Origin: Leptasterias polaris
Lineage: Eukaryota; Echinodermata; Asteroidea; Forcipulatida; Asteriidae
Assembly: GCA_037783415.1 (NCBI GenBank)
Contig: JAZGTN010000177.1
Span: 372,001-436,000, forward strand
Length of the DNA: 64,000 nucleotides
Reading direction: 5' to 3'
Made by a program: the position numbers and the translations under genes. The notes beneath the pieces are model-generated. The model was not told the origin of the DNA. It made no database searches and was given only the letters and a program-made list of their open reading frames with translations. Shown piece by piece: positions 35,201 through 63,030 of this stretch (the first letter of the stretch is position 1; every line of letters starts with the position of its first letter).

Positions 35201-38200
35201 AAACAAACAAACAAACAAAACAAACAAAATAAACTGTACAATAACAATAGGGATTCGGCTGATGGCCGAACACCTACAACAACAAGAACACCACAATATG
35301 CAGTTTGAGCATCTGTTGACTATAGCTTTCTTAGGGTCCTTTTTCTTTTTTTATTTCCTGTTATGGGCCATAGCTTTCTTTCTGCTTGAGTCTTTCAATG
35401 CTCATTACACTATTATTTTATCAGTTGTGAGAGTTGTTTTCCATCATTTGTATGCTCAGAAATGCTAGTAGCTCATTTAAATAAAGATGCTAACCTAAAC
35501 AGTACAGCTCTGTCCTGTAGAGCTATCATTGCTTTGCAATGTAGAGCAGTAACCTCCACAGTGTCTCCAGTAAATCCTCTGCATTCTCCTGTTAATTGAA
35601 CAAAATAAAAGATATGTTATCGAAGCTTCTAAAGTGCAATGTGACAAAAGAGGGTTTATGATTATTGCAACAAGGTTATTTCAACTTAAATTCTTCCTAA
35701 ATCCGAAGGGATTTTCTATTCTAAAAAGAAAATACTCACCTCCGATACCTACATGTACAAATGCATTTACAATGTACAATGCGCATGCGCAAGCAACTCC
35801 GCTGAACAAAAACAAAGCACCTCCCACGCACTGCACACCCCGAGTGTACACACGAAATACGCCCTTCTTTTTTACCTTAGCCTTGTCCGTGCGTGTGTCC
35901 CTGAACTCCACATTTTTGATTCTTTATTTTGGGGGAGGGATGGTATCGGAGGTGAGTATTTTCTTATTAGAATAGAAAATCCCTGCGGATTTAGGGATAT
36001 TCTATTACAGAAAATACGCCACCTCCAATACCAATACAAATGCAGAGTGGCACTGTTGAACCACAAGATAGGGAGGGAACAGGAAGTGCAGTGTTGGCCC
36101 CAGAGTAGATGTCTTAACTAAATTATGCCTGAAACAAATGAAAAACAGGAGCTGTTAAGACATACCAGTAAGCTGTGCTTGAGGTGCTCTTAAGAGGACA
36201 AGTCTGCATGGCATGGCATGGCCGAACTGTCATGATGATTAGCTGTGTTGTGTCACCACGCAGCCCTTTTGTCCGATCAATGTAGAATTTAAGAATAAGG
36301 ACAGGGCACCATAACTTATCCTTCTGGATGCTTGAAAAGGACGTAAGACTTGGGACAAAGATATCTGGAGGTGAAAAAATTGGCGACTGGTTCTTAGTCA
36401 GGAAGCCAATTTGCGGAATTAGCCGAACGCCCCCTGGTTCTCAGCTCAAGTAGCCTGGTTCTATGGACAGGGCGTGGAGTTCACTTCTACGACGGGCCGT
36501 GGAGGCCGCTAGCAAAAAGACTGTTTTGACCGTCAGCAAATGAACGAATGAGGATTCAGCTGGTTCAAAGGAAGACTTTGCCAGCTGAAGAAGGATGCTG
36601 CCAAGGTCCCGGAAGGGGTAAGCTTTTTAGTGGGTGGTCTGTCTACGAACATACCCTTCAGGAGAAGTGAGATGGCAGTGTTGTTTGAAAGGTTGGAGCT
36701 ATCGTCGAACCCTCTATGTATTATGGCAATGGCAGATCTGTAGCCATGAATGGTTGCAATTTGGAGACCCGAGTTAAACAGATGAAGAAGAAAATCCCCA
36801 ACCTCTGTTAAAGATGCAGAATGGGGACTGAAGCCTTTCTTGTTGCACCATTTGATGTAATGTTGTAAGCGATTGTCATATGTTCTTCTGGTTGAAGTAC
36901 GTCTGCTCTTGGTCCGAAAGGCCAGCTGTTTGAAAGTAAGATTTGACAGAGATGGAGACTGTCCGGATCCGGATGTAGGAACTTTGTGATTGGTTGTGTC
37001 AACATGTCTGGATGTTTCGGTAGGACGATAGGAGGTCGTATTAGAAGGTCGAGAAGCTGAGGAAACCAAACTTGCCTTGGCCAAAGAGGGGAACCAAAAT
37101 TATCTTGCAACTCTGCTGTTTGATCTTTTGTAGCACTCGAGGTAGCAGGGAAATTGTGGGAAAGGCATACCCCAAGAGGCCTGTCCAGCTGAAGCTCAGG
37201 GAGTCTGTTGCCCAAGCTAGAGGATGAGCATGTCCGGTGCAAAAGGTTGGAAGTTGATGGTTGAGATGGGATGCAAAGAGGTCTACATGTATGTGAGGCG
37301 TGTCCAGATTATTGAAAATTTGTTGGACTGTGGGGCGGTGAAGGGACCACTCTGTGGGCACTGCTTGACCCAGCGAGAGTGCATCTGCAATGACATTTTC
37401 TTTCCCCGACAGGTGGTGTGCTTGTAGTGAGATCTGGCGGGGAATGCACCAATTGAGGAGTTCCCATGTATGCATGCAAGAGAAGGTGAGTGGGTACCCC
37501 CTTGGCGGTTTATGTAGGAAACTACTGTGGAATTGTCTATCTTTATTAAGACTGTACGATATATGATTCTGCTTGTCATACGTTGAAGCAGGTTCTAGCA
37601 GGTTGATGTGAAGTACATGTAGCTTCTCTGTGGGTGACCAAGTTCCGGCCACCGAAAGATCGTCCAGGTCAGCACCCCAACCTGACTGTGAGGCATCTGT
37701 TGTCAGAGTCACTGATGGTGTGGGTTGCGGGAATGTTGTGCATCAGAGAAGGTTCTGATGACGAAGCCACCGATTGAGATGGGATTGGATGAGGGAGTTG
37801 ACTGGAACTGGTAATTACGTCCCTTCGGGGTCGGTAAGGAAAAAGCAGATGAAGCTGAAGAGGGCGCATATGCATCCTGCACCATGGTACTAAGTCTACA
37901 AGACTGGCCATGAACCCCAGTAGATGAAGCCAGGCCCTGGCTGGGAGCGTTGAAGAGGTAAGGAAGAGTCGAATACATTTTTTCGGGGCAAGGCAGCGTT
38001 GGGGGAGGCTTTCCCGGTCGTCATGTTGAGGGATGTTCCTAGGAATACTGGGTTTTGGGATGGGACTAATGGAAGACTTCTCTGTGTTGATGATGAACCC
38101 TAATTCCTGTGTAAGATGTATGGTCGTTGATAAGTTTTGGAGAGTGTCTGATCGTAAGAGGGGCCCACAATCATCCAGTCTTTCAGGTACATAAAAATGT

Positions 38201-41200
38201 GAATCTGTTGATGACGTAGAGCTGCAGCCACCACTTTGGTAATTCTGGTAAAGACCCTTGGAGCAGTTGAGAGGCCTAACAGGAGGCATCGAAACTGGTA
38301 GGTCTTGTGTTGGTAAGTGAACTGAACTGGAGGCACCCCTGGTGATTTGTATGAATGGGCACATGGAGGTAAGGGGCATGGTCCAAATAGAACCAGTTCA
38401 TTTTCAAAGCTTCAACATTTGTGAATCTTAACACCCATGCTATAGGACAAAAGAACTGATGCTTGACTGTGGTTTCACCTAACAAAGGAGCATCAGGCAG
38501 TCTGGACACCAATGCAGGGCTGCTGCTAATATGTTACTAATCCTTACTAATCCTCCATGGCCAAGATGTCCAGAACAATGTTTGGTGTTTGGCTGGATGC
38601 CATGATTTAAGCTTTTTAGTTTTTTGCTGTTTGTCGTTTTCAAAATCTCAGAACTTCTGAATTATGCGTTCGAATTAAATTGATATATTAAGCCAACGCT
38701 TGATGTAATGGGATACACTCTATTCAAACAACCGAAAGTAAATGTAGACAAATTTAAAACATTTCTCAGACTGTATCTTTTTTAAAGTGTCCATATCAGG
38801 TATACTTGCTTTTCCTCAAATGGGCGTGTTAACGATGTGCCAGAAGGGATACATCCGGTTACCAACACTCTGAAAACTCCCTAAATTGTTTCACAAGTCC
38901 TCGCCTTGACATTTTTTTATTTAAGCAACCCAAACCCAAACTGAATTTTGTTCACATAAAAGGGGAAACAACTTTAAAGTTTTTTTTTTGCAAAAGCAAT
39001 TTAAGAAAATATAGGGGAAGAAAAAGGAATATAGATAGCGGGTAGTCCGTCATGCTTCCATCTTGCATAATGTGTAGTGCCCAATCCTTTTACTCCAGTA
39101 CGCAATACTGATACACGGAATTATGTCCATTGGTTCTCTTTTTTGTGCACTGCGCATTACAGCCAATGGATGTCAGACACATAGATCTCTGACCTAATTC
39201 ATAGTGCACAACGCATTAACATGTAAAGGCCAAGCAATGCACATTATGAATATGTTTGGATTGCTTGGCATGCATTTTCAGAATTGCGCACTACGTTTTA
39301 TGCTCGACAGACATATGAATTTTCGGCCCAAATCTTAAGTTTTCACCAGCAGCCGTTGTTTCATGTTCTTGTACGGAACGCACCAGGGTTAGATACCAAG
39401 TTCGTACCCAAACCAAACAATTGCTGGCGATACGAATGTGCAATAGCAGACCTCCCAACATGTACGATTTTGGCGTACTTTTAATTTTTTTTTACCCATT
39501 TTACACTTTTATTATTTTGTTCTTCATTTGTACGATTTTTGACAGTGCCTTTTTCAATATTTTTATTTTTTATTTTTGGCGCGCCATACGCGGGCCTCCA
39601 TAGCATTTTTCATTGTCAAGACTTGACAAAGTCTAGTTCCATGTTGTATGTCGTTCCCGGTCGTGTGGTCCGCATCATCGTGTTCACTGTAATACGTTCA
39701 ATCTCCAAAGATCAAAAACAAGAGACTACATGTAGCAGCTCGTCTGAGAATAGACGATTTGCGTGGAGTGATAATCTGTGCAAGCATGGCTGCTTAGTGC
39801 AGTATGTACATGTAATGTACATGTACAGTGTATCGTACATGTACATGTACATGTACATGTACTTATGTTCATTGCAAACGCAGTTTGTACTATCATGTAC
39901 AACCACATGCTTGACACGCTACACGACACCTGGAACGTTCTAAGCTGGGCAAGATGTCGAACAAAAAAAGGTTTGGTATTTACTGGTTAGTGTAAAAAAA
40001 AAAATTATTTCTGAAATCTTAATGTTGGGAGGTCTGCAATAGTGATCGCAATGTGTGCTTCTCCATTGCTCGTGATCGTATTGAAGACATTATTGGCGGT
40101 GGCACTGGGGTTGAATGATGCACTAAGTCCTGATCTCAGGTTATACTTGGTCATTTTTTATGGTTTAAAGTAAAATGTATCAAATAATAAACCACAAGAT
40201 TATCACTCCACGCAAAACGTCTATTCTCAGACGAGCTGCTAGTCTCTTGTTTTTGATCTTTGGAGATTGAACGTACATGTATTACAGTGAACACGATGAT
40301 GCGGACCACACGACCGGGAACGACATACAACATGGAACTAGACTTTGTCAAGTCTTGACAATGAAAAATGCTATGGAGGCCTGCGTAAAAATATGGCACG
40401 CCAAAAATTAAAAATTAAAATATTGAAAAAGGCACTGTCACAAATAAAGTAAAATGTGTAACAACATTTGTAAAGCACTATGGAAATAACAAAACGGAAT
40501 GCAAGTGTAAAAGGTATGTGTGTTTTAGTTTTAAATTCATTATTTTAGTCAGAGCTCTTTTAACATGGGCTATAATCCAAATACAATGGAAAGTAATCCG
40601 ATTATACATGTAGCCACAATTGTTCTGACTCCTCACACTCCAGAGGACCGAATAAGCTGAGGGCATTGAAGCGATATACAAAAGATCCTCCCAACCGTTT
40701 GGCAAATGCTGTTGAATCGTTTGTGCCTCAAACCATTTGGCAACCGTTCGACGGTAGCTATACCGGTTCTAGTCGAGGGAAGTGGCCCACCAGCCCCGAG
40801 GGAGAGATTGTAAGACAATTTTCAGCGTTTCCATCCGGAAATGTTTGGGTCGAATGCAGGCGTTGAGGGGCCGAAGGTTGATGATTGGTCGCCACTGGTC
40901 GAGTTTCTTGGGAGCCAGGAAAAAGGTTGAGATGAAACCTGGTCCAGTGTTGTGAGGAAGAGGGACTACATGTATAGCCTTCTTTTCTAGCGGAGAAGTG
41001 ATCTCTTTCTCCAAAGCGCTCCGACGAGCAGGGTCTTTTAGGACCGGAGTAGGTCGGTTGGGTAACTGAGAGGTTGAGGAAGAGGACTTGTAAACTCTAG
41101 TTGATAACCCGAGGAAAGGGTCCGAAGGACCCAAGAATCTGTTGTGACTGAAGTCCATCTTTGAGAGAAGTCTAGCAACCGACCCCCTACCGGTCCAGGA

Positions 41201-44200
41201 GCAGGTGGAACATGAGGTATAAGGCATGTGGAGCCATTGTCTCCTTGGTCCTCTAGGCCACTGTGTCTTGAAGGAGTGGGTTGAACTAGAGGGTGTTGCA
41301 TTGGCTGCAGAGGGTTGAGAATGGTAACTGGGTTTGGCAGTCGGGCGAGTGAAGGTGGCCTTTGGTTGACAAAAATGGGATAGGTGGGAGCGACGAAAAG
41401 ACCCTCGGTTGCTTTTCCTGCCCTTGACGTAGTGCGAGAGGACAGTGAAGAAGATTTACTTGAGGGGCGGCACAGGTTAATCTTCTCATCAGTCTTCAGA
41501 CGCTTCGCTTCTTGGAGCATGACTTGAGATGGCCAGAAGAGCTGGTCGAGAATAAGAGACCTACGCAGGGAAGTAGCTTTAGCAGAACTGGTAGCGATGG
41601 TCCGTAGGCAGGAACCTAGGCAGTCATCAAGAAATTTAAACATAACAGGGAGGAGTTCTGGATCCACTGTCGCGGGATCTTCTGAAGCCCGAGCAAGAGT
41701 ATCCGACAATAAAATTGACAGGTTGAAACTTAGGCCCCATAGCGTAAATGGCGGTCTAGCTTCTCGAGAGAACTGTTGAGGTCTTTCGTGCGTTTATCTG
41801 GAAAGATGTTTTTCCCAGTTGGTTTATCAGATCGAAGCTTATCTGTAACCGTTGATGAGATTGTTGGGACCGTGACAAATCTATCGGTATCATCGGTATT
41901 TGTTTTGAAGAGAGAAGGTTCACAAGCAGGAATTTTCAGATGTTTTTTCTTTTGAAAGATTGAGAAAACCTCTTTAATATTCTCAGAGCAGAAGCTGTCT
42001 ACAGGAATGGTAAACTTTGGTGGAGGAGCGGGCTGGGTGGAATCCCTGCGAAATGACAAGCGGGAGGCCTCTTTGGGAGGAGGAGGGAACTGTAAAATAC
42101 TACTCACTTCAGGGATCAATACCTTCCCTCTGTGGAACATGAATGTGTTCCCAGGCTCCACCAAATCAAGATCTGACCCAACAGAGCTCCTTGGAGAGGA
42201 TTTAGAACGGGAGTAATGCCCAGGGGAGTAACATCCGAATGATCAGGGATCGTTTGCAGGTGACCCAAGGTGGGGTCTTTTCGGCGAGCGGGAACGGGAA
42301 CGTCTAGAGCGGGAGCGGTGGAACTCGATGTCACCTTGGAGATGTCGCCGAGAAAAATCCGCGGTTTGCGGTATAGTGGGCGAACACCAGAGCGAGAAAA
42401 ACTTCCGTTATCTGGTGGCCGTTTCTGAGGATAGTAGTTGGTAAAATGTCTGATGGGTGGCAAAAAGGTAAGTGTAAGGACCCATGGAAGGATGTGTCAA
42501 CTCATATTGGCAAGGATCGTCAAAGAAAAATTACCAAGGAGAGGCCTGGAAGTTGGCGGGGCGTTGAGGGTAAGCCCGGAACTCCCCCGGAAACCGGTGT
42601 AGGCTTGGTTGTTCCAAAGAGGCGGGAATCGGACGATCATAATACGCGGCTAGAGGATGGCAAATCTTCCGAAGCACTGCTGTTAACCATTGACACGTTG
42701 ACCTCGGGTGCGGGAACCGGTGAAAACATCATTTGGTTTGAAGAAGATGTTGTATTTTGAAGATTATCGGTTGAATCCTGGAAATTTTCCTTCTGCGTAG
42801 GTTTCTTGCGTGCCAGACTATCCTGCCATGCCGTAAAAACTTTCCATTCCGCGGCAGACCAGCCGGAGCAGACCCCGCAGGGTTTTTCCTGTGAACACAC
42901 ACGACATCTCTGGAACCTTGGATGAACGTCGAATTCTAAGGTCGACGAAGGACCAGCGCAGGATCTACATTTCGCTTTCCTGTAAGATTTTTTCTTTGCC
43001 TTGGATGATTCTGACATGTGTCCAGAATCTGGACCAAACTGCTTGCACTATAGTGTAACGCTACGTTGTACCGAGGGTCGAGAGAAAAACTACAATGTAC
43101 TTGACACTATGGCACGCTGTAAAAAGAAGGGCGTATTCCGTGTGTATCCTTGGGACTTGCAGTGCTAGGGGAGTTGCTTGCGCATGCGCATTGTTAATGC
43201 ATTTGTAGGTATCGGAGGTGACGTATTTTCTGTAATAGAATTAATATATTTGTAGGCTTTTTGCAGGCATGGTATTTGACCCTTGAAAAAAAATTTGTTG
43301 TTTAAGCTTAGAATAGACCATCAACACATGTACATGTACAGTAGAACTCTGCTACAATGTGTAACAAACACCACAGGCTCCATGAATTTTGTTCGGTATA
43401 CATGTAGTGGTCAATCAGTACAGCAATTTGTGTTGTCTCAAGTGAAGACTTATTCTAAGGTGGCGTCTGTGATGTGCCATGAGGTGCGCCCTCTTTTGGT
43501 CTCTAGTTTCACCCATGTGACCTCTTTGTGCATCATCACAGTTTAAATTTGTTGTTGTAATCTTTTTAAAACTTGTATTATATTCGCAAAAATTTAAAGT
43601 AATAACTTAATGTTTTTAGCTCTGTAAATATCAAAATGAATATTGATGCTATTGAATCTTATTTTAAGTATAGCTTCAGTGTTACATTGCTCATTTTAAT
43701 GGCTGGCCCCCCTGTGCGCAAAATCGGGTTAAAGAATGTTTGATTTTACTTGTGATGGCAATTTGTTCCATAGGCGTGGCGCAGCATGAGAGAAATGTTG
43801 GTCTCCCCATGAATGATTGGATATGGGATCAATAAGGAGGCTAGAATCGTACGACCGTAGTTTGCGAGGAGGATGGTATGGTTTGAGAAGATCATCAATA
43901 TACATGTATGCAGGGGCACTGTTAGTGAGTGATTTATACACAAAAAGCATAAGTTTGTACTGAATCCTACTGCTTACTCAGGGTTTGAAATTAGCAGTCG
44001 CCCGGTCGCCAAATGCGAGTGAAAACAGCGGCGGGCGAGTCGAAACCCTTCCTTTATTAGCCCGCCGGGCGAGTCAAATACATGTAATTGTTCTTTTTCA
44101 CAATAAATGAGGGTACGGTGGTAAAATCCCAAAGAAAGTTTTTATTAAAGCTTTTAGTTTGATAAGTCTGGATATTTGCTAGATTTAATGTGGTTGCGAT

Positions 44201-46856: not shown

Positions 46857-47068
46857 CTAACAGTAAAATAAACAAATTAAAAGATAAATGTGGTAAAAAG
46901 AAAACATTGGTAGAATCATGGTGTTTGATTTTAGAACGACTACCCTCCACATATATACCAATAATTCTGGAACCTTGACGTCTACATGTAGGTACCACAG
47001 GCCTCACAGGCACAGCTCTAGCAGATTGACCCAGACTTACATACATGTACATGTACGTATCAGTGTTG

Positions 47069-47070
47069 AA

Positions 47071-47101
<31 letters not shown>

Positions 47102-47215
47102 AGACCATATTTTTCAGGTCTTGGTCTCGGTCTCGAATGTCGAGGTCTCGGTCTCGGTCTCGATCTCGGACACAGGTCTCGGATAGTCTCGGTCCGAGAC
47201 CTTGCCGAGACCCAT
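47069..47215 (+). repeat. GGTCTC hexanucleotide array, left arm
   Basis: Imperfect (GGTCTC)n next to the left hAT end. The complementary orientation of the array at the right end would let the arms pair. Confidence 0.9.
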
Positions 47216-47549
47216 TAAAAACTCCAGAATGTTTGAAGTTGGTTGTTCGATTAACCATTTTTGGTTTATGGTTTATTGCCTGTATCACTCTAGGCAGTTC
47301 ATCACCAGCAGCATGAACTGTGTGTCCTTATTCATTAACAAACCGCATGTCATGCAATGTGTACTGTGTGCATCCACTGAGCGGCAACGATGTTTGACCA
47401 TGGTTTGACAGAGCCAACTACAGGATGTACATTGAACCTTGAAAAGAGTTTATAAACTATACAATTTTAAGAAAAAAGTTTGCGTTTGAATTTTTAACTT
47501 TGATTATACATTGCAGTCTTGTTGACACTAATGTGTAATGTAACGCAAT

Positions 47550-47760
47550 TACTCCATGATTGATCATTAAATTTGCTTTTTAAGGATATAGAGTTTGTGG
47601 ACAACACAACAGGAGAGTGTAAAGCATTTGGTTCCAAAGTTTTGTTTTCGATCAAATCCACCACTGAACAGACGGGGACCAGTTCAGCCTTCATCAGATT
47701 TGTGAGTTGTGATCACAACATAAAGTATATACATGTACAGGCAACTTTACTTAGTGAAAT
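47550..47760 (+). other. Possible captured exon inside the hAT element
   Basis: After TTTTTAAG the plus strand reads DIEFVDNTTGECKAFGSKVL, FSIKSTTEQTGTSSAFIRF, followed by GTGAGT (a good donor, about 47701). An acceptor-donor pair around a stop-free 120-bp stretch looks exon-like. I do not recognise the protein. It could be a host fragment captured by the transposon, or chance. Confidence 0.3.
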
Positions 47761-47914
47761 GGATGTTTGTCATGTTCGCAGTATTTTACTTACATGATTT
47801 GAACAATTACATACTTGCTGAAATGGATGAAACAAAACAAATTTTGGGGCGTGTTTTTCTATGTTAAAGAAGGAATCAGCTAGTATGAGTAGGACTAAGG
47901 CTGAGGAATATTTA

Positions 47915-48134
47915 GGTGTTCATGCAGTAGTGCGAACACCTCTTGTTATTGTCCTGGTTTGTTTTTTTCTTCTCTTCCCCCTATCTTCTTCTTCCACTCA
48001 ACTCTTCTCTAAAACATAACTCAAAAGTGAAACTGAATTGACCCTTGAAACTCATCAGACATTTGAACCTCATCATTAAGACGGCACCTGAACTATTGAT
48101 GAAGTCATCAGGTATCCAATTAAAATCAAAGTTC
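47915..48134 (-). repeat. Hairpin-repeat family, copy 7 (left half, interrupted by gypsy)
   Basis: AGGTGTTCATGCAGTAGTGC / GCGAACACCT hairpin (47919-47946), then a CTTCTTCTTCC tract and CAAAACATAACTCAAAAGTG-type body. The body resumes at 54006 after the gypsy element (CATAACTCCTGAATCAC), matching 12000-12170. Confidence 0.75.
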
Positions 48135-48733
48135 TATAGGGTGAATGGTTACTTTAACTATTCTTACCCTACTTCTGCGTCTTGGGTGACTAACTGGCCT
48201 CCTGTTGACGATGTTATTACGCTGGTCCGTTACACTCCAGTCAAATAATGTGGTTTAATTTATTTACAACTTATCTATAGTAATTATGCCTAGAGAAAAT
48301 ACCTAAAAGACTATGGTGTCCTCAAACCAGAAGGTTGCTGTCTATAGGAGTGATTTACTGCCAATTCAGTTCCCAACCATCCTTTGGACGACCATCTAAA
48401 AGCTAACCCTAAATAAATTACAACTAGCTAACATGAGGAGCTAACATGAGGAGCTAACATGAGGAGCTAACTTGTCTCTCTTGAAAGCTGGAGAAGAGTG
48501 AGAGAGTATTTGCCTCCATGGGGTTTTTATATGCCTATGTACAACAAATAAAGGATTAGGGTATGCTCTATGCATACACAAAAGAAGTTAACTAAATGCC
48601 TTTATATAACACTTGGGGTTTTTGGGCTCTTCCTAGCTAAAGTAGAGAGTCCATTGTGATTATTCACAGTTGACATTCCAAGTACAGTTACACAAAAGGG
48701 AAAGGCAACAGCTGTTAATGGAATTTCACTACA
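48135..48733 (-). repeat. Gypsy 3' LTR
   Basis: On the minus strand it begins TGTAGTGAAATTCC and ends CACCCTATA. It carries three tandem copies of a 13-mer (GAGCTAACATGAG) where the other LTR has one, and TATA where the other has TA near 48354. Confidence 0.95.
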
Positions 48734-48746
48734 TCTAGCCCCTTCC
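48734..48746 (-). other. Gypsy polypurine tract
   Basis: Reads GGAAGGGGCTAGA on the minus strand directly before the 3' LTR, the expected plus-strand primer site. Confidence 0.75.
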
Positions 48747-48803
48747 AAGATCACAACTTCACAAGAAAGTGATCGATAATACACAAAAATTAATTACAAA
48801 ATT

Positions 48804-51800: not shown

Positions 51801-52210
51801 ACGCCATTGCTATCTGGTATGGCAAATACAGGGCTTGGTGAAACTATTGACGATTTGCAGCCTGAAACGTTTAATGCAGTTACTGTATCGATTAGTTTAC
51901 GATTTTTAACATCGACTGCTAAAGAGAAATGCCTTAGGAAATCTGCACCGAGTATTGGTATAGGCACAGATGCGATGATAAAAATCCATTTATACGATCG
52001 CCTTAAACCTATGTCTAAAGTCATTGACCTTTCTCCGTAAGTTGATATTGGAGTCTTATTAACTGCCTGCAATGTATATGGGCTACTATTCTGTTTATCC
52101 CTAATGCTAGGTGGTAAAACACTCACTTCGGCACCAGTGTCGATCAAAAATTTAGTACCAGTGAATTTGTCGGTTACATAAAATAGACGGCTTTTGGATT
52201 GGCCAGACAA
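48804..52210 (-). pseudogene. Gypsy Pol: protease, RT, RNase H, integrase (broken)
   Basis: Order on the minus strand: aspartic protease ([14 protein letters not shown], near 52145), RT ([20 protein letters not shown] near 51510; MPFGLRNAAQTFQRFIDQ; catalytic AYIDDLLIA near 50955), RNase H (LMVDASNLAVGGVLQQ and ILTDHKPLIYAF), integrase with HHCC part (HNLSHPGIRATQ ... CIQCQRAK) and core ([27 protein letters not shown], with NGLVERFH as the Glu), and a C-terminal tail to 48804. Defects: a frameshift at about 51400, a MITE at 51046-51335, breaks near 50740 and 49670, and a stop near 49415. Order RT-RH-IN identifies Ty3/gypsy. Confidence 0.93.
51046..51335. mobile_element. TTAA-flanked (piggyBac-type) MITE inside the gypsy RT
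   Basis: 290 bp bounded by TTAA on each side (51042-51045, 51336-51339). Ends CACGTTGACTGCCG and, reversed, CTCGTTGACTGCCG. The interior repeats CTACGAGTATACTCGTAG-like palindromes. Removing it with one TTAA makes the RT reading frame continuous across the site, so the target was precise. Confidence 0.93.
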
Positions 52211-52236
52211 ACTCGTCGTCCCTAGATGCTGGCGTT

Positions 52237-53091
52237 TTAGTTTCCCTCATTAGTTAGTCTATTTGAGTTTGATTCATGATATGAACATGGTTTGACACAT
52301 TTGGTTGCTTTGTCTCCGAATCGCCAATGGTACCAACATTCCGAACCTGCCCGTGGCACGTCGCTAGACTGCCTGGATGGACTTCGGTACTTTTTATTCC
52401 TTTTAGAGCGATCTCTGCTACGACTATGCCTATTCTGTTGGCTACCTGTAACTAGGTCTTGCACTAATGTCGTTAGTTGGTTAATTTGTGCTTGCAATTT
52501 GCCAAATTTTTCCTCAATTGCTTGTGGTTGTGTATCTGAGCAAGCGGCTACTGTACAAGCGGCTACTGCAGGTGATGGGGATGCCACTTCGACAATTTTA
52601 TCAGCTATTACAGCTAATTGTTCAAGATCCACATCATCACTTGAGGATGCTAGAATTAAGTGTACGTTTTGAGGCAAACGTTGCAGGAACAATTGTCTCA
52701 AAATACTATTTTCTAGTTTATTTTCCCCTAGAAGTTGCTTCATTCGTCGAAGAAGTTGGGAAGGCTTTTTATCGCCAAGCTCTTCAGAAATTAGCAATTG
52801 ATGTAGTCGTTTTTGCTCGGATTCAGAAGTGCGTTTGATAAGTTCTGACTTTATTATATCATATTGATCAACCGTAGGGGGATCTATAAGTAAATCTCTT
52901 ACTTCCTGTGCAATTTCTGGTTGAAGTGACGATACTACATAAGCAAATTTAGTAGATTGGCTAGTAATATTTCTGGTTTGGAACTGTGCCTCTACTTGGG
53001 CGAACCATATTGTTGGATCTTTCGGCCAGAAAGGTGGTAATTTGAGACTTACGGCTGCCAGTGGCACTGAAGTCTCAGGTGGTTTAGCCAT
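52237..53091 (-). CDS. Gypsy Gag polyprotein (intact)
   Basis: 284 codons. The N-terminal capsid-like part has [20 protein letters not shown] and [20 protein letters not shown], then [20 protein letters not shown] and [11 protein letters not shown], the pattern of gypsy Gag proteins of invertebrates. The C-terminus is basic ([20 protein letters not shown]) and ends with [18 protein letters not shown], a Cys/His cluster that departs from the usual CCHC knuckle. Starts 335 bp inside the 5' LTR. Confidence 0.9.
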
Positions 53092-53407
53092 AATTATCTA
53101 AACAAACTTATCAACAAATGTTAAATCATTTACTCCAGCGGCTAATCTTACTATAATTTGATCAGAAGTATTGTAACTGTGGAGTTTACGAATGCCTGGA
53201 CAAACAAGGTTATAAATCTTAGCACCACGAATTGAAATTATATCAACAGTGAATGAACAATCTGGTAACTTAGGATACTTCGGTATCTAATAAAATTGTG
53301 TGCTCTAGAATCGGCCAGAAATAAACATCGAATCATCACCAATTATTAATGAAGAATATTTCTTCCTTATGACTACAGTTAATAAATATACAAGTACAAT
53401 TTAGTTT

Positions 53408-53424
53408 GAATGTCGGGATCACCA
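53408..53424 (-). other. Gypsy tRNA primer binding site
   Basis: Reads TGGTGATCCCGACATTC on the minus strand, two bases inside the 5' LTR. It starts with TGG as required to pair with a tRNA CCA end. The tRNA species was not determined. Confidence 0.75.
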
Positions 53425-53794
53425 GTTATAGGGTGAATGGTTACTTTAACTATTCTTACCCTACTTCTGCGTCTTGGGTGACTAACTGGCCTCCTGTTGA
53501 CGATGTTATTACGCTGGTCCGTTACACTCCAGTCAAAAATAATGTGGTTTAATTTATTTACAACTTATCTATAGTAATTATGCCTAGAGAAAATACCTAA
53601 AAGACTATGGTGTCCTCAAGGTTGCTGTCTAGGAGTGATTTACTGCCAATTCAGTTCCCAACCATCCTTTGGACGACCATCTAAAAGCTAACCCTAAATA
53701 AATTACAACTAGCTAACATGAGGAGCTAACTTGTCTCTCTTGAAAGCTGGAGAAGAGTGAGAGAGTCTTTGCCTCCATGGGTTTTTTATATGCC

Positions 53795-53802
53795 TACATG
53801 TA
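53795..53802. other. TACATGTA footprint-like insertion in the 5' LTR
   Basis: GCC-TACATGTA-TGTACAAC here, GCC-TA-TGTACAAC in the 3' LTR (48536-48537). LTRs are identical at integration, so the difference arose afterwards. Confidence 0.95.
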
Positions 53803-53871
53803 TGTACAACAAATAAAGGATTAGGGTATGCTCTATGCATACACAAAAGAAGTTAACTAAATGCCTTTATA

Positions 53872-53880
53872 TACATTGTA
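53872..53880. other. TACATTGTA footprint-like insertion in the 5' LTR
   Basis: TATA-TACATTGTA-ACACTTGG here, TATA-TA-ACACTTGG in the 3' LTR (48607-48608). Seven extra bases at a TA. Confidence 0.93.
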
Positions 53881-54360
53881 ACACTTGGGGTTTTTGGGCT
53901 CTTCCTAGCTAAAGTAGAGAGTCCATTGTGATTATTCACAGTTGACATTCCAAGTACAGTTACACAAAAAGGAAAGGCAACAGCTGTTAATGGAATTTCA
54001 CTACAGTTCAATATTCACAAAAATCATAACTCCTGAATCACAAATTTGATTTTTCTTCATACACATCATTCGAAAGGTCTTTACAAACTAAGTAAATGTT
54101 TCACTGATATGACCCCGTTTTGACCTTGTCTTCCAGTTCAAACCAGAAGTTGAAACAAAATACTATTAAAAAGCCATTGTTTCAGGTTGAAAGGTAAAAT
54201 TATGTCATCATTTACATCATTCAAGAACTACTTGTTTTTTTAACATAATAAAAATTGAATTTCTAGTTTTATTTTGGTTTTGGCAATGGTTCAACAGTAC
54301 ATAGGTAAATCACTCTTGGATTGAGGGCCCCCTGACAAGTTAGTTTTTATTGAATTTTAA

Positions 54361-54396
54361 TGAGGTCTCGGTCTCGGTCTCGGTCTCGGACTGTAA

Positions 54397-54438
<42 letters not shown>

Positions 54439-54475
54439 TGTCTCGGAAGATCAGGTCTCGGTCTCGGTCTCAGAC
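54361..54475 (+). repeat. GGTCTC hexanucleotide array, right arm
   Basis: Imperfect (GGTCTC)n just inside the right hAT end. An apparent Ser/Val open frame over it is compositional. Confidence 0.9.
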
Positions 54476-54509
54476 TTTGAGGTCTTGACTACAACACTGG
54501 TACGTATGT

Positions 54510-55185
54510 GTAACTGGAGGCCAGTAATCCTGAAAGCATCACCCCAAAAAGTGAAGCTAGCCCTTCCAGTGTTTTTGTGTGAGAGGTCACTGACACAGGA
54601 GGTATGGTTCTTGCTGACGCCTCACCGATGACATTCCAGAAGAGGTGCCAGCTGAGGCAGACCCACTCACTAACTCTTGCTCTTTTTGTGGTATCTGAAT
54701 GTATGCATTATTTTAATTGAGTGTGGAAGCTTAGGGCTCAGAAAAATTTGCATTTGTATGATTAACAAGTAAGGAAGTACCACAAAACAACACAGAAAAC
54801 TTATGACCTTACTGCTTTGCAAACTACAAAGGAACCCAGAACCCAAAGCTTGTCGACCTTTTTTTACATGATACGATGCAAATATGGCCTCTCCTGGAAA
54901 ATCTGTAGAGGGTACAATTTATTGCTGCACCAGAGAGGCATGGATCATTAAAGACTATGCATTAAGCTGTGGCTGACCATAACACTTGTATACTACATGT
55001 ATTTGTATCAATTTTATTGACTGCCCACACACAAATCACTTCTTCTACATATAAAACACTTTAGAGTTTGCCCACACACAATGAAATCCCTGATTTTTTT
55101 CTGTCTGAAATATAAATATATCTGTCATGGTGACATTTCGTAGGACAATACAATTTTTATGGAAGTGGTCAAATGAAATTTTGAA
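54510..55185. other. Intergenic or intronic, nothing recognised
   Basis: A stop-free stretch at 54615-54690 reads LTDDIPEEVPAEADPLTNS on the plus strand but lacks supporting splice sites. No repeats identified. Confidence 0.4.
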
Positions 55186-55189
55186 GCCG

Positions 55190-55920
55190 TCACAACAGTA
55201 ATATGAAGACATAGGAAAAGATTTCTTGGTGTTGTCGCAAACTTGTCGTACGACAATCCCACGACAGTAGTGCGACAAACATGACCTTTCATGGTCCATT
55301 ATCAGGTGTAAAAGTCAAGCTACTGTCATGATACTGTCGTGCGACAGTCGTACTACTGTTGTACTACAGTCGTGATACTGTCGCAGCTATTTCGTATAAA
55401 ATTTGCCAGGTATATAACGGTGCCAGCGTGTTTCGGTTTCGTTCTCACTCAAGTTTTTGTACAGTCCACATGTCAGAGACAAGCTTTAAATTTACAAATG
55501 GCACCAACGAAGAAACCAGCTTTTACACCCCTCCAGATATGGGAGAATAACGCACAAGGTAATTGCGATTAGCTTGCAAATGTCATGTGAAATTCGTTCA
55601 ACATTTGTACTACATTCGCATGAAATTTCATTTTGTACGTATCACACGAATGTTGTCTGATTGTCGTGGTGTTTCGTGGTAAAGTCGTACAAATAACACC
55701 AAACTTTTCCCCTCCTATAGGCAGGTCAGTTTCGCACAACTGTCGTAGGAAATTTGTACGAAGGTTTCACGACATAACACGACACTACTTTGACAAAAAG
55801 CCAACAAATATTCGTGGAGTGAAAATAAAGTAGTTCTAATTTTAAGACAGGACAGATTTGTTGTCGTAAAACATCAAAGAAATACGACACGAAACCTCCT
55901 CTTTTCTGTCGTGAACCTGC
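55190..55920. repeat. Cluster of TCGT(G/A)CGAC-type palindromes around a TATA-like box
   Basis: GTCGT/ACGAC/GTCGC motifs occur roughly 20 times in 730 bp, some as perfect palindromes (TTGTCGTACGACAA at 55242, CTGTCGTGCGACAG at 55327). In the middle is TATATAAC (about 55411), followed by short open frames beginning MSETSFKFTNGTNEETSFYT and MAPTKKPAFTPLQIWENNAQ in different frames. Could be a transposon with dense terminal binding sites, or a regulatory array. Unidentified. Confidence 0.45.
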
Positions 55921-56109
55921 ATATTCCTATCGAGGTCCCATTGTGACTGCTTGTTTCGAGATAAACTTATCACAGTATTCTATTTTTACACACAGAATAC
56001 TGTGATTTGAAAGGATTTTACAAAGAGTGTTAGGTACAGAAGTTATCTGTTGGTAACAGAGGAGTTTAAAGGAGTTTGAAAAGTTCTCACTTGGTATTAT
56101 TATATTTAA

Positions 56110-56285
56110 GAACAAACACTTGATTGGTTTAAATTATGGTTATGTTTTATTATCAAAAAGTATGCGTTAATGAAGCAAAATCAGATCCAGTTGCTCTTAA
56201 TTGCGGAGTCCCGCAAGGTTCTGTTGCAAGACCCAATTCTTTTCTCCATATATTTGTCTGGATTAACACACATTTTTCAATTAAT
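56110..56285 (+). pseudogene. LINE RT fragment
   Basis: The plus strand reads KSDPVALNCGVPQGSVARPN then SFLHIF, matching the RT motif SGVPQGSVLGPILF of CR1/jockey-like LINEs. Only this motif region survives. Confidence 0.65.
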
Positions 56286-56289
56286 TAGG

Positions 56290-57980
56290 TGTTACCTATC
56301 ACGCGCGCACAGAAATGGCGACCGCGACCTTCTGCTTGTTTCGCGATAAACTTATTGGTGTTTTTACCTACGGAATACTGTGATCTGAAAGGATTTTACA
56401 AAGGGTGTTACATGTAGGTACAAAACTTATCAGTTGGTAACAGAGGCATTCGTTTTCATTTCTAAAGGTATGTTGTGATTATTTTCAATCATTTTGTAGC
56501 TTTGTTTGACAGAACAGTTGAGAAAACTTGTTTGCACAACTTTCCACGTAACAAGCATTTACTTCATGCGCAAACAATGTTTTCAATTTTTTTTTGATAT
56601 ATCTCTTATGTTTCCAACCTCAAAGCTTCAGTTTAGTCACGCAAACAAATCAACTGTGAAAATTATTTAAAAGATAATTTCATCCTCACAACATAAAATC
56701 ACAACAACAGTTACAGTATCTGAGGTTTTCTAGGTACGGCTGAAAATAGTGTGAGTTTCCGAGGCACGGTGATGAGTGAATGACGCTATGTTTGATAATG
56801 CTTGAGTGCTGAAGAGTTAAATCTCAATGTCTAGATAAGAACTTAAGCCTAAAAAAATAGGGTAGGTAGGTAGTGTTTTTATTTTATTTTTTAATACAAT
56901 TGAAGAGAAACAGAGAGAAACGGTTTCAAACATATTTATAACTGATTTCTATAGACTTTAATTAGTAAATTTCTTCCCTTGAAAAAATAAAAATATCCAG
57001 GGTACATGTACAGCATGTAGGCCCCTGTTTTAGGGTAGGTCGGGTTACGCAACATAAAAATTTTTTTTTTAGGCCTTAGCAATGGTGCCATGATGGCGTC
57101 ATCGGTTTTCAAATCTGGCTCAATAACATTAAATCTTTGCATTAATTGTCTGTGAATGTTTGATGTATGAAAGTTCTTTATATCTGTTTGTGACCTTATT
57201 TGACCTGGCTTCCTGTCCAAACTAGAAGTTGAAAAATGTATATCATCGGGTCAGCAACAACTTAACAAGGTTGAATCTCATATTTTTGGTAAAATTGAGT
57301 AAGAATATATATAAAAGGTGCTTTATTTTTGTCTAAATAAACTGTAACAGTTTCAATTTTGTCAAAAAAAGTAATTAAAAAGATACAGGTCATTAACAAC
57401 TAATGACGTAATAATCCATTAACATGTTATAGTGCAACAAAGTCGTATCTCAGACATACATGTACATGTACTGAGAATTATGACGTTTTTCCTCATTTAT
57501 TGCACGCGATGCAGGTTTGTGCAACAAGGCCGTAACTCCAAGATACATGTACAACCTTTTGACCAGTCAAAAACCGGTCTTATCTACATGTACAATTTTC
57601 ATGGTAATTAAGGGATAAAACTTGTTTCAAAGGTAATTAAGTGTGTATATCACATGTTTTTTAAATTATAAATGTCTTCATATATGTACATGTAATTCTT
57701 AAGTACAAATGGACTTGTCTCAACCAGTGATTGTTTAAAACGTCCCCAAACCTTTAAAAGATATCTACTCATAACTGCAAGTGGAGTTACGACCTTGTTG
57801 CACATGAAGCTCTTTTTAACTGTTTACTGGTTTTTATGTTCATATTTATGCCTTTATTTTTACTGTCATTCTACAAACACTGTATTTCTAGTTATCATTG
57901 TTATACTGATGATATTCAAATTCGTGTTTCATTTCTGCCCAACCAAGTTGAGGCAGTTAATAACATTCAGTAACTTGAAG
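56290..57980. other. Dispersed-repeat remnants, no gene recognised
   Basis: A stretch at 56316-56460 repeats sequence from 55935-56070 (TGCTTGTTTCGAGATAAACT versus TGCTTGTTTCGCGATAAACT, GGATTTTACAAAG, GTTGGTAACAGAGG), i.e. a direct duplication some 380 bp apart. Many TACATGTA octamers occur (57003, 57471, 57545, 57590). Confidence 0.5.
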
Positions 57981-57985
57981 CTTGT

Positions 57986-58160
57986 ATAGACCTTATGCAT
58001 TGACGTCACCAAGCCGCCATCTTAGAGGTAAACTGATGATGAAACAATGGAAACGCGCTGATTTGTACACGCGGCACACAGGACTGGCCAATGAACATCT
58101 TCCTTTTGACCTCTAGGCGAGGGCGCCCTACTCAAATGACGCCATATGCATAAGGTCTAT
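57986..58160. mobile_element. Small MITE with ATAGACCTTATGCAT ends
   Basis: 175 bp with 15-bp perfect terminal inverted repeats (57986-58000, 58146-58160). TGACGTCA lies just inside the left end. Target duplication uncertain, possibly TA. Confidence 0.7.
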
Positions 58161-58545
58161 TGGATATGTCACAGCTCCTGAAACAATCAGTTCGGGTCAG
58201 ATCACTTGACTACATGTGTATATGCCAAACTATTACAACAGTCAGACGTCTGATTTGTATATTCACCTAGATATTCCGTTGTCACAGGCAACCAACTACC
58301 ATGCTACATGTACATGCATGCCTCGTTTTACCCATACAAAGAGTTAGAGGTGGTACAATGTACTGGAAATCATGATTGAAATCCCCCTTTTCCGGGGATT
58401 ATTGTGTAATCCCTGATTCAAGACCTTTGTCCAAGTTCTTTTATACAAATGTGGCTTACAAGAATGGATGAGCTGCCGCCGTTTTGTAGCATTGTATTCA
58501 GCTCAATGAGAGGTAAGTCTGAGTGTTCTGAGATTCCAGTATACC

Positions 58546-58830
58546 ATGGCAGATTATCGGCCATGGTTTATGATTCAAGGTGAATGCATACTCAAATTTT
58601 CTCAAATGAGAACAACAAATCCTGGTGGTACATGTAATTATAAGAACTGTCGTCGTCTTTCCTTTGTCAACTCAAGGTTTCATTGTGGAAACGATATTTT
58701 CAAAGAAAATTATTACTCATTTTTGCAGGACGCTCCGAAAAATAGTAATGCACAGAGGCATAGTATTAATTTTGAAAACGTACGTGAAGTGATTAATTAT
58801 GATGAATCCGAGTTGTTACTCACTGGTTGA
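58546..58830 (+). CDS. Uncharacterised 94-codon open frame
   Basis: Begins MADYRPWFMIQGECILKFSQ and contains NYKNCRRLSFVNSRFHCGND and SINFENVREVINYDESELLL. Just upstream at about 58514 is a good donor (GAGAG|GTAAGT) preceded by MDELPPFCSIVFSSMR, and at 58545 an acceptor-like TTCCAG, so two short exons are conceivable. No family recognised. A LINE tail follows directly, so it could be LINE-associated. Confidence 0.3.
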   Translation: MADYRPWFMIQGECILKFSQMRTTNPGGTCNYKNCRRLSFVNSRFHCGNDIFKENYYSFLQDAPKNSNAQRHSINFENVREVINYDESELLLTG

Positions 58831-58854
58831 AAACAGCAGTTACAGCAGCTTAAG

Positions 58855-59165
58855 AAGATTTTCCTTTCATAACTATAATGTAGGTTATTCTGTTATTCAT
58901 CTGTTATTCATCTGTTATTCATCTGTCTAAATCTTGTAGAAATCTTGATGTCATGTTCACAACCTTGTTTCTTCCCATATAGATTTTGGTAATTCACTTC
59001 TTAACAAGCACATTTACAAAAATTGCTTGATACAGCAGCTCGCATAGTTATGCTTACAAATTGTAGAACACATGACACCTGTGTTGCACTCTCTTCATTG
59101 GCTACCTGTCAATTTTTATATTATGTTTAAATTACTTCTACTTGTGTTTAAATGTGTCTATGCAT
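58855..59165 (+). pseudogene. CR1/L2-like LINE, C-terminal fragment
   Basis: The plus strand reads LDYGNSLLNKHIY-like sequence, then PVLHSLHWLPVNFYIMFKLL and LLVFKCVYAW, corresponding to DYGNSLL...ITPVLxSLHWLPVxxRIxFKxLLLxYK. An 11-bp unit TGTTATTCATC is repeated three times just upstream (58889-58921). Confidence 0.8.
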
Positions 59166-59170
59166 GGCAT

Positions 59171-59280
59171 GTCATGGCCAAGTGATCTAGTTCACCGGAC
59201 CAAAGCTCTGTTGTAAGCAGCAGAGTGTGAGTTCGAATCCCAGTCATGACACTTGTGCCCTTGAGCAAGGCACTTAAAGG
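59171..59280 (+). mobile_element. tRNA-derived SINE, head fragment
   Basis: Matches the SINE at 13.9 kb from the A-box region (ATGGCCAAGTGAT, degenerate) through GAGTTCGAATCCCAGTC (B box) to GAGCAAGGCACTTAA, where TTAAAGGGACAC begins different DNA. The break at TTAA suggests another TTAA-targeted insertion, whose right end I did not find. Confidence 0.75.
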
Positions 59281-59430
59281 GACACACCGGCTCCGTTGGG
59301 CTATTTTGGCTACAAAATAGACTTAAACATGACTCCAAAGGTCTTCCTGGAATGGAGAAGAACGGTTCCTAAAAGAAACCATCAATTTTGGCCGTTTTTG
59401 AGCATTTTTCAAATAACGAAGGTCACATGG

Positions 59431-59462
59431 GTTATCCGAACCACATTTTTGGTTCGGATAAC
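59431..59462. repeat. Perfect 12-bp-arm hairpin
   Basis: GTTATCCGAACC (59431-59442), 8-base loop, GGTTCGGATAAC (59451-59462), within a short plus-strand open frame of unknown identity (59296-59604). Confidence 0.9.
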
Positions 59463-59924
59463 GCTCATGATCTTAGGAGTTAGTTTTACTTCCAGCCGTA
59501 TAAAATTTAATTACTGCACCGAATTCAACTCTGTTTTTTTAGAAATTATTCATGAGTATTTGACAAAAGAAAATACATATTCAAATTATGGATACAAGTT
59601 GTAAATAATTTTTTTAAATCCAAAGTAAGAGTGTGTGCAACAGAAGCATGTTTTACAATGCACAGCGGCAATCGTGTAGCTGGCTGGCGGAGTGGCTCGA
59701 TGGGGCTAGCGCTACGGAAACCCCCAAGCCAAGAAATAGCTGTACCTGGAAGCACATGTACATGGGGTAGGGAGCAAGATCACCAACTACATTGTTGTCA
59801 TTGCGGGTTTGCCAGTCGGTACACCTCGCTGATCGAATCCGCAACGTTTCAATGCTCTGTGTAAGTTCCTTCCACCGATTTGTACTGAATTTCTTGGTAA
59901 TTAAATAAGATTGATGTCAATACA

Positions 59925-60240
59925 TAGGAATACATGTACCACTTAAAAAAATTACAAAAAACGAATCCCCCCCCCCCCCCACCCCAAGAAAGAAAAAAAA
60001 AACACAAAAAAACGAGCCCCCTGTAGGGACAGGTGAAAAAGAAATTAACAATTATGTGCAAAAAAAAACCTCCCTCGAAATATTATTGCATCCCTCGACA
60101 AACAAAATCCCAACAAAATCATTTTGTTTCCTCAAAATATTATTTTATTCAATCAAAATAAAATTTTGTCACACACAATATTTCATTTTTTATTTTGTGA
60201 ACGAAGTGTGTTTTTCTAGGTAACAAAATAGATTAATACG
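59925..60240. repeat. Low-complexity A/C runs and AAAT-rich DNA
   Basis: Poly-C (59968-59979), poly-A runs, then ATTTTGTTTCCTCAAAATATT-type degenerate repeats leading into the next feature. Confidence 0.6.
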
Positions 60241-60572
60241 TTCGTTCCCTCAAACACTTTCGTTCCCTCAAGATACGGTTTTGTTCCCAAAAAATACACT
60301 TTTGTTCCCTCAAGATACGCTTTCAATTGTGTTTGCCCAAATTATACTTTCGTTTGCCCGAAATATGCTTTGTTCCCTAAAAATAGGCTTTCGTTGCCCC
60401 GAAATGAGATTTCGTTCCACAGATATACACGCTTTCGTTCCCTAAAAATATGCTTTCGTTTTGTCGAAATACGATTTTGTTCGCCCGAAATATACTTTCG
60501 TTCGCCAAAATATGCTTCCGTTCCCCAGAATTCCTTTTTCGTTCCCTCAAGATAGCTTTCGTTCCCCTGAAG
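60240..60572. repeat. Degenerate GCTTTCGTTCCCTCAAGATA repeat array
   Basis: Around 14 variable copies of a 20-26-bp motif of the form (tat)RCTTTCGTTCCCtcaaRA. Flanks (60080-60160 and 60620-60710) carry related TTCCTCAAAATATT / inverted GAGGGAACAAA sequence, so the whole block is loosely palindromic. Apparent EGTKxxFxGT-type repeat peptides on the minus strand follow from the array. Confidence 0.8.
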
Positions 60573-60939
60573 TCCAATCAAAACAATTGGTTCTACCTGG
60601 AAATCATATTTTGAAGTAACAAAATAACACTTCGAGGAAATGAAATAGCAATTCTGGGAACCAAATATTATTACGAGGTAACACTAATGTTATTTAGAGG
60701 GAACAAATATATTTTCCTTTTTGTTTTAATCTTTAAATAAAAAAGAAAAAATCACCTGTCTCTTTAGGGGCTCCCCGTACCAAAAGTAAAACCTGGTCGT
60801 CACAACGACCATCGGGTGGATGGAGGGTTACGATCGTATTCCACCTACTTTTGGCAATCTAAAAGTCGTAGGCGTAGTGTGGTACATGTACCTGTTGTAG
60901 AATTATGATTAAGATTTTGTGTTTCTTTTTCTTGTTGTT

Positions 60940-61113
60940 CTACCATATTTTAGGTTTCTTTCTCTGTGTTTTGGGGGCGATCTTTGGAAGTCTTAGGAAT
61001 GTAGATTGGACTGGCGCGTGTACACGTATTAGGGGCATGTGTCGGTTGTTTATACACACTTTATGAGCTGGATCTGGATGGATAACATAGAATGGATCCT
61101 CATGCCTTGCCAT
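60940..61113 (-). CDS. Uncharacterised 57-codon open frame
   Basis: Starts ATGGCAAGG in a fair Kozak context (ACTATGG) and reads MARHEDPFYVIHPDPAHKVC, INNRHMPLIRVHAPVQSTFL, then a basic tail RLPKIAPKTQRKKPKIW. The composition looks protein-like (few low-complexity residues, HPDP and APVQ motifs). No family recognised. The frame is open 18 codons further upstream. It may be a first exon, a transposon ORF or chance. Confidence 0.3.
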   Translation of the reverse strand: MARHEDPFYVIHPDPAHKVCINNRHMPLIRVHAPVQSTFLRLPKIAPKTQRKKPKIW

Positions 61114-61401
61114 AGTAAAACATCTACATAAACAGAGCACCAGTCTACTTGCAACATTTCGCAGCAATATCCCGTAAATTTGACACTTGCAACAGCCAGT
61201 AAAGCGTTTACGCTGACCTTTGACCGCTTTTGTTTTTTCCGGTCATTTCTCGTTAATTACTTGATATTTTTGTATTTAAAAAGTATAAAAACCATCGTGG
61301 CCTGTCGTGGCCGAGCGGATAAGAACACTGAACTCAAGCTCTGGTGTTTCTGATCAGCAGAGTGTGGCTTCAAATCCCAGTCGTGACACTTGTGTCCTTA
61401 A

Positions 61402-61714
61402 AGGTATTATACAGGATTGGTAGAGCTGACAAAATAATCACAGACAGTGTTCATGTTTTGTGTAATCAACCACATACATGTACATGAAATAACAAACCTG
61501 TGAAAATTTGAGCTCAATTGTCATCATAGTGAAAAGAGACCTTATGTGTTTTCTGTTTTTCAAACATCGAGTTTATTATCACGCGTGATAAAAACTATTG
61601 TTTTACTCATTTCTCAGAAACCCTTTCTACCATTACTTACTTTAAATCATGTAACTTATGTGTGAATCTGTGAACATTTGTGTTTTTCGATCTTACTAAT
61701 AGTGTACAGGGCCT
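61402..61714. mobile_element. TTAA-flanked MITE inside the SINE
   Basis: TTAA at 61398-61401 and 61715-61718. Ends AGGTATTATACAGG and, reversed, AGGCCCTGTACACT. The uninterrupted SINE has CCTTGAGCAAGG here. The interior (AACCTGTGAAAATTTGAGCTCAA, CTTATGTGTTTTCTG) matches a second copy near 45960-46090 in a COG6 intron. Confidence 0.8.
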
Positions 61715-62003
61715 TTAAGCAAGACACTTAACCACATGCTTCGTCCTTCGGATGGGACGTTAAGCCGTAGGTCCCGTGTGTTGTGTAATGCACGTAAAAG
61801 AACCCAGTGCACTTATCGTAAAGAGAAGGGGTTCGCCCCGGTGTTCCTGGTTTGATTGGCTGCATATTGCGCCACAGCACCTTGTAAACTATTACATGGT
61901 GCTATGCAAAGGAAAAGGTCTCATACTTCAACACGTAACTCCACATACCTTGTAGGAAAAATACTGAGTGCTTTGAGACACCCATCGGGAGTATAAAGCG
62001 CTA

Positions 62004-62011
62004 TACATGTA
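62004..62011. other. TACATGTA footprint-like insertion in a SINE tail
   Basis: GCGCTA-TACATGTA-TAAGAAC here, GCGCTA-TA-TAAGAAC (reversed) in the SINE tail at about 62955-62970 and GCGCTATATAAAC at 14198. Confidence 0.9.
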
Positions 62012-62935: not shown

Positions 62936-63030
62936 AGAATAATAATAATAATAAAAACTAGTTCTTATATAGCGCATTTCACAATAACGTCTCAATGCGC
63001 TTTACATTAGTGCCCTGGTCATTGGGCCAT
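62936..63030 (-). mobile_element. SINE tail fragment joining two DIRS-3 pieces
   Basis: Reversed, it reads GGCCCAATGACCAGGGCAC, AAAGCGCATTGAGACG, GCGCTATATAAGAAC and an (ATT)n tail. It lies exactly where the DIRS RNase H frame ends, and the DIRS resumes only at the recombinase C-terminus. Confidence 0.8.

Follow-up and report, generated by a model that had tools for sequence, protein, structure and literature searches.

The closest described counterparts of the insertions reported here are the footprints of Tc1/mariner transposons (Tc1, Sleeping Beauty, Frog Prince, Hsmar1), which insert at TA and leave a TA on either side of a few bases. Overhangs in this group are 2 or 3 bases long, and the Sleeping Beauty and Frog Prince footprints in Table 1 of the same source keep one of them (PMC3878927). 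Sleeping Beauty is described as leaving CAG, with joints that vary (PMC8151067), and ZB as leaving zero to three bases, while the target published for Tc1-like elements is ATATATAT, with a central TA (PMC7913693). Two other systems offer partial parallels: the cyanobacterial HIP1, a palindromic octamer presented as hugely over-represented (PMC4390886), and hexanucleotide microsatellites of the form (TACATG)n. In this report, we examined a 64-kb stretch of the genome of the sea star Leptasterias polaris (G000:C177:372001-436000, hereafter the window) in which the octamer TACATGTA, that is, CATG between two TAs, is over-abundant.

TACATGTA shares features with each of these systems. As in Tc1/mariner footprints, insertion takes place at TA and a few bases stand between two TAs; moreover, these bases match the terminal CA...TG of a Tc1-like element. 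Unlike in that group, both overhangs would have been kept, one product apparently dominates, the scars number about 10^5 and no donor is found in place. Like HIP1, a single palindromic octamer is in large excess, but each repeat copy has it privately, as the result of an insertion at TA. Runs of the unit are present, as in a (TACATG)n microsatellite, whereas single units appear at TA without a local template. The top-ranked results of our literature searches, which are not the whole field, held no recognisable description of insertions of TACATGTA, or of a second word, TAGGCCTA (GGCC between two TAs).

TACATGTA originates by insertion at TA

A first-pass annotation of the window had claimed recurrent insertions that turn TA into TACATGTA. 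The claim was borne out, every position that it cited carrying the word ascribed to it, and the phenomenon, which is real and strong, proved more extensive than the window alone showed. The window contains 64 copies of TACATGTA, where a second-order Markov model predicts 2.6; next in rank among 8-base palindromes is ATGTACAT, with 25 copies for 2.9 expected. In the whole assembly (629.7 Mb, 334 contigs), TACATGTA was counted 164,656 times and ATGTACAT, its reversed control word, 75,241 times. Our sample comprised 18 stretches of 10 kb (16 from spread places and two flanking the window) and seven of 5 kb, of which one lies 27 kb away from the window; once satellite loci L010 and L019 had been excluded, together with the satellite of the window at 15.4-18.1 kb, 256.3 kb in 24 sequences remained. 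Among the 136 TA-N4-TA classes in this set, TACATGTA ranks first (126 for 8.4 expected). Outside contig C177, 51 copies were found in 170 kb, and extrapolation from the sample suggests a genome-wide excess of about 140,000. The flanks of TACATGTA are near background past about four bases. A different word, TGACGTCA, is also strongly over-represented on both strands (166 for 5.3 expected; for example at sampled loci L013, L014, L016 and L017), and it is mostly common to copies within repeat families.

Comparison of repeat copies showed that TACATGTA arises as a gain, at TA. In an all-against-all alignment, a related copy covered 13 TACATGTA sites, and none of the 13 had the word in common with its copy. 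With more sequence and a slightly different filter, the word was again conserved between homologous copies at none of 12 covered sites, 10 of which faced a gap of 4-6 bases (among the 12, sites 22649, 37614, 45960 and L012:5651 are ambiguous and 61475 is possibly a local duplication). Insertions of 3-15 bp made up 134 alignment rows. Fifteen unique rows were 6 bp long, of which nine, from eight sites, give rise to TACATGTA, two to TAGGCCTA and four to other words. The remaining 119 rows differ in length, and TACATGTA results from none of them. The annotation had named as grounds for dropping its claim that such indels be no commoner than other 6-mers, and this is not what was found.

Clean conversion of TA to TACATGTA, with the additional bases lying between two copies of the TA target, was confirmed between the paralogous copies that the annotation had compared: by alignment in the long terminal repeats (LTRs) of the Ty3-like element, in both arms of the inverted pair and at the DIRS terminus, and by eye in the repeat tail (Table 1). 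Its run of TACATG units is likewise present. At 37614 the word is there, but the alignment with 13360 is poor and ambiguous. Wider sets of copies gave the same picture. Forty LTR copies were aligned, namely the two of the window and 38 other full matches, from the best 40 of 134 candidates, and only the 53.8-kb copy of the window has TACATGTA. In the 38 copies from elsewhere, which match the query at 92-96% identity and add up to about 21 kb, the word is absent, so the process is uneven as well. Both insertions of the inverted pair are missing in the two other copies that cover them (C50 and C70; C137 gives no coverage). The window copy of the 57264-57803 repeat bears five TACATGTA at four places, for none in the six other copies listed, which are 73-77% identical to it. 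At L070:3007, TACATGTA is private in comparison with 17 alignments to related units, most of them tandem units of that same locus.

The annotation had also placed 7-bp cases, TACATTGTA and TACAATGTA, in the same class. We dropped them, as they look unrelated: together they reach only 10 for 5.3 expected, one insertion is shared between LTR copies and the other reads as a tandem duplication.

The insertions look young, since forms of TACATGTA with one mismatch are not in excess. With TACATGTA masked, its 24 one-mismatch neighbours occur 148 times in 221.3 kb, for 147 expected, and 168 times for 169 expected in a larger set with slightly cruder masking. This would put the mean decay per base below about 3%, at two standard deviations.

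Table 1. Sites of TACATGTA and related words in the window, with the copies used for comparison
Position	Feature	Comparison	Remark
53795..53802	TACATGTA in one LTR of the Ty3-like element	other LTR	6-bp gap against the other LTR
48536..48537	empty TA in the second LTR of the Ty3-like element	partner of 53795	
39727..39734	TACATGTA in one arm of the inverted pair	other arm, empty at 40240	word also lacking in C50 and C70
40274..40281	TACATGTA in the other arm of the inverted pair	first arm, empty at 39693	alignment
35750..35757	TACATGTA at DIRS terminus	12342 and about 43.2 kb, both empty	
62004..62011	TACATGTA in repeat tail	related tail near 62962 empty	compared by eye
57544..57551	TACATGTA, clean 6-bp insertion	TACATGTA in 0 of 6 other repeat copies	
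57585..57592	TACATGTA, clean 6-bp insertion, same repeat as 57544	copy comparison	
57687..57694	TACATGTA within a 12-bp insertion (about two units), same repeat as 57544	copy comparison	
57457..57470	TACATGTACATGTA	copy comparison	replaces about 12 bp of other copies
61475..61482	TACATGTA	copies read CA-CATG or TACATG	local duplication possible
39836..39861	(TACATG)n run with four overlapping TACATGTA		
37614..37621	TACATGTA in DIRS-like element	13360	alignment ambiguous, 72% identity
53872..53880	TACATTGTA	insertion in 2 of 40 LTR copies	outside the class
35768..35776	TACAATGTA	tandem duplication of TACAATG	outside the class

The window also contains DIRS-like and Ty3-like pieces and a decayed piece of a DDE_3 transposase. 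The TACATGTA at 63741 lies in a DIRS-like reverse transcriptase frame, where it encodes part of DAYLHVP, and is probably not an insertion. At 28784, TACATGTA stands, as judged by eye, in the loop of the inverted repeat GATGCACCATAGAGGTA. Positions 15526-18062 form an 18-bp tandem array of 140.9 copies with 99% matches, open in two frames.

Target bias, clustering and a second word

The empty targets of 97 isolated sites are biased in a way that partly resembles Tc1-like elements. TTAA (0 for 10.6 expected) and ATAA (5 for 20.8) are both avoided, as is T at -1, and 76 of the 97 sites, for 52 expected, have A at -3 or T at +3. This last excess stems in part from 22 of the 194 half-sites, which end in ATG; when these and halves with T at -1 are left out, A at -3 has a frequency of 0.41, for 0.30 expected.

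Insertions are clustered. Pairs of neighbouring TACATGTA at most 60 bp apart number 12 (a count that includes a 25-bp tandem duplication at 19530); 500 shuffles gave 4.9 such pairs on average and never more than 12. Nine of the 24 sampled sequences, 70 kb together, have no TACATGTA. On contig C2, where the matches listed for the two-unit form TACATGTACATGTA reach up to 3.155 Mb, 15 of the 35 distinct loci among them fall in a hot domain of 140 kb (G000:C2:2142113-2281756). Contig C1 is almost without TACATGTA from 1 to 1250000 and dense beyond 1.25 Mb. Two C1 loci 248 kb apart share 2.26 kb at 99% identity, built of units of about 185 bp; the first 1.25 Mb of this contig is probably largely satellite.

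TAGGCCTA seems to have the same kind of origin but a greater age. It occurs 16 times in the 256.3 kb, for 1.6 expected (L008:6964, L009, L011, L022, other sampled loci and window 32307), with unrelated flanks and also in loci without TACATGTA. For three of its sites a related copy could be compared. Two of them are private insertions, the copy having TA in one case and TG in the other, and the third is shared with a decayed form, TAGGCATA. Its greater age is suggested by this shared, decayed site and by its one-mismatch neighbours, which number 55 for 46 expected.

The search for a donor element

Profile matches to DDE_3 (PF13358) number 71 in the genome, many with open frames, and element ends were inspected, in part, for nine groups of them. 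One element, J (C84:260946-262729), is flanked by TA on both sides and has the terminal repeat CACTGGCGTGCAAAAGTCTTCGCGCACC, so that its ends read TA-CACTGG...CCAGTG-TA. Three close copies, at 100, 99 and 93%, were found among 31 matches, two of them with stop-free frames, and J, a low-copy Tc1-like element of the right kind, looks recently active. The genome thus holds a TA-flanked element whose ends match, and the case that the annotation had set against its own proposal, that no CA...TG element exists anywhere in the genome, does not apply. Within the sample there are two candidates, L022:3635-4929 (terminal repeat 18/22) and L066:384-3532 (19/20); if at most these two are real, CA...TG elements should number fewer than about 15,500 genome-wide (95%). 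At least two TA-flanked elements of the form TA-CC...GG-TA also occur in the sample (window 31750-33235 and L016:2559-4092), with ends CCGTATTTTCC and CCGTAATTTTC and no transposase among the window frames listed.

Other candidates were rejected. Family A, with ends that read TA followed by TAGGTTTTCCCGG at eight left junctions and one right end, is a young Tc1-like family (G000:C16:248587-250880 and 11 further copies; 12 left ends 99-100% identical; stop-free frames of about 380 amino acids in many copies); its subterminal parts are rich in CATTCAATTT, and a decayed relative lies on the minus strand of the window at about 13.6-15.45 kb. Group D looks like a relative of family A, the ends of family H (C20) read TA followed by CCTGTGTGTT, and the end pairs of groups B, C, E, F and G yielded no usable terminal repeat. 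At L012:7825-9665 a 22/22 inverted repeat continues beyond the TA, and a 167-bp insertion at L013:9716 that starts with TACATGTA seems to be a non-LTR fragment, truncated and including a stretch of (GATA)n. The family of window 57986-58160, a 175-bp inverted-repeat element with ends ATAGACCTTATGCAT and many genomic copies at 96-98% identity, is young and abundant but lacks TA/CA boundaries. Many further CA pairs matching at 15-17/20 in a looser scan were judged by eye to be chance.

Excision footprints and rival explanations

Whichever mechanism is at work, the insertions account for the over-abundance of one octamer, TACATGTA. We consider them best read as excision footprints of a Tc1/mariner-type element with CA...TG ends, a reading that is partly supported and unproven, and to which we give slightly less than an even chance. 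A TA-specific cut-and-paste transposon with such ends would have been very active recently in this lineage. It would insert at TA, duplicating it; on excision two terminal bases would remain on each flank, and end joining would yield TA-CATG-TA. By analogy with the Tc1/mariner mechanism, CATG would stand between two TAs because both 2-base overhangs of a CA...TG element were kept, and the words would be palindromic because the terminal repeats are inverted. TAGGCCTA would be the mark left likewise by another family, older and with GG...CC ends; repeated hits, or slippage inside TACATGTA, would give (TACATG)n runs; and a few hyperactive, locally hopping elements would have produced the roughly 10^5 scars. 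The uniformity of the product could also be explained by a 4-base self-complementary overhang (CATG, GGCC) whose ends re-anneal, although ends beginning with CATG, which this variant needs, were not found.

The part of the Tc1/mariner proposal that stood comprises insertion at TA as a gain, several sites without a local template, the youth and regional clustering of the insertions, the partial target bias and element J. Other observations weigh against it. GTAC is the most favoured target (16 for 4.5 expected at the isolated sites), unlike the published consensus. Scars seem to far outnumber CA...TG elements: close copies of J number three for about 10^5 scars, its terminal repeat did not turn up in the DNA sampled, and beyond the two candidates no CA...TG element was confirmed in the 256.3 kb. 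None of the footprint sites proved to hold an element; at 56900-58700, no second haplotype appeared among the 41 matches listed and no compared copy holds an element. TACCGGTA reaches only 5 for 1.8 expected, although TA-CC...GG-TA elements occur in the sample. In the cited passages, Tc1/mariner footprints keep one overhang or vary, and the scars here are unusually uniform: single-overhang forms are not in excess (TACATA/TATGTA, 190 for 208 expected; TACACTA/TAGTGTA, 21 for 31), so that variable joints including such forms were not observed, and the CATTG and CAATG cases look unrelated. TACATGTGTA (7 for 1.2 expected) and TACACTGTA (9 for 3.3) show a mild excess.

This uniformity, without single-overhang forms, and the lack of a confirmed donor in the sample when scars apparently far exceed elements, would fit a micro-insertion free of any element, in which TA is cut by a transposase at work on empty sites, or by some other nuclease specific for TA, and joining adds the palindromic CATG and a TA directly and uniformly. 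We regard this as rather unlikely: we know of no enzyme that inserts CATG at TA in this manner, and micro-insertion alone leaves the use of two words, CATG and GGCC, unaccounted for. Replication slippage, through which TACATG units would arise and expand, had been put forward in the annotation as the main alternative, a place that it did not keep. It can draw on the 11,153 TACATGTACATGTA in the genome, on the seven of 104 runs in the sample that have at least two units, and on sites 61475 and 35768, which resemble local duplications; slippage is thus a possible source of run growth. As a source of single units it is unlikely, for it gives no preference for TA, the empty sites at 39727, 40274, L014:3126 and L070:3007 have no CATG or TACATG next to them, and only two of the nine TACATGTA rows, both from one site, passed a test for tandem duplication. 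As the overall explanation we find slippage very improbable.

The absence of decayed neighbours bears on two further proposals. If germ-line elements were cut out in the sequenced tissue by programmed excision, TACATGTA would be renewed each generation, which would explain both the lack of decay and the uniform product; no occupied site is seen in the assembly, however, and nothing else points to such a process, to which we attach very little weight indeed. A functional word maintained by selection or conversion, such as a HIP1-like palindrome or a transcription-factor site, would also lack decayed neighbours and show a palindrome with near-random flanks, but TACATGTA is inserted into dead repeats of various kinds and is not shared between their copies, and selection on about 10^5 sites is implausible, so that this idea is scarcely credible. 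Equally hard to credit is an artefact of assembly or sequencing that places CATGTA at TA: the insertions are indeed exact, private and undecayed, but target bias, hot domains and the decayed form of TAGGCCTA shared by two copies are all unlike an artefact.

Should the excision-footprint reading hold, the insertions would document, across the genome, the normally invisible events in which transposons leave a site. The rate of such departures, the extent of local hopping and the outcome of repair would become measurable in a natural population. Should no element be involved, a hitherto unknown mutational process would write a fixed word at TA. In both cases the insertions look young and are easy to score. 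It is conceivable, if on balance doubtful, that a process directed at TA, not described before and active until recently, has been adding exact palindromic tetramers, at first GGCC and now CATG, to an animal genome at some 10^5 sites grouped in hot domains of about 100 kb, either without any element or through a hyperactive low-copy transposon with near-uniform rejoining.

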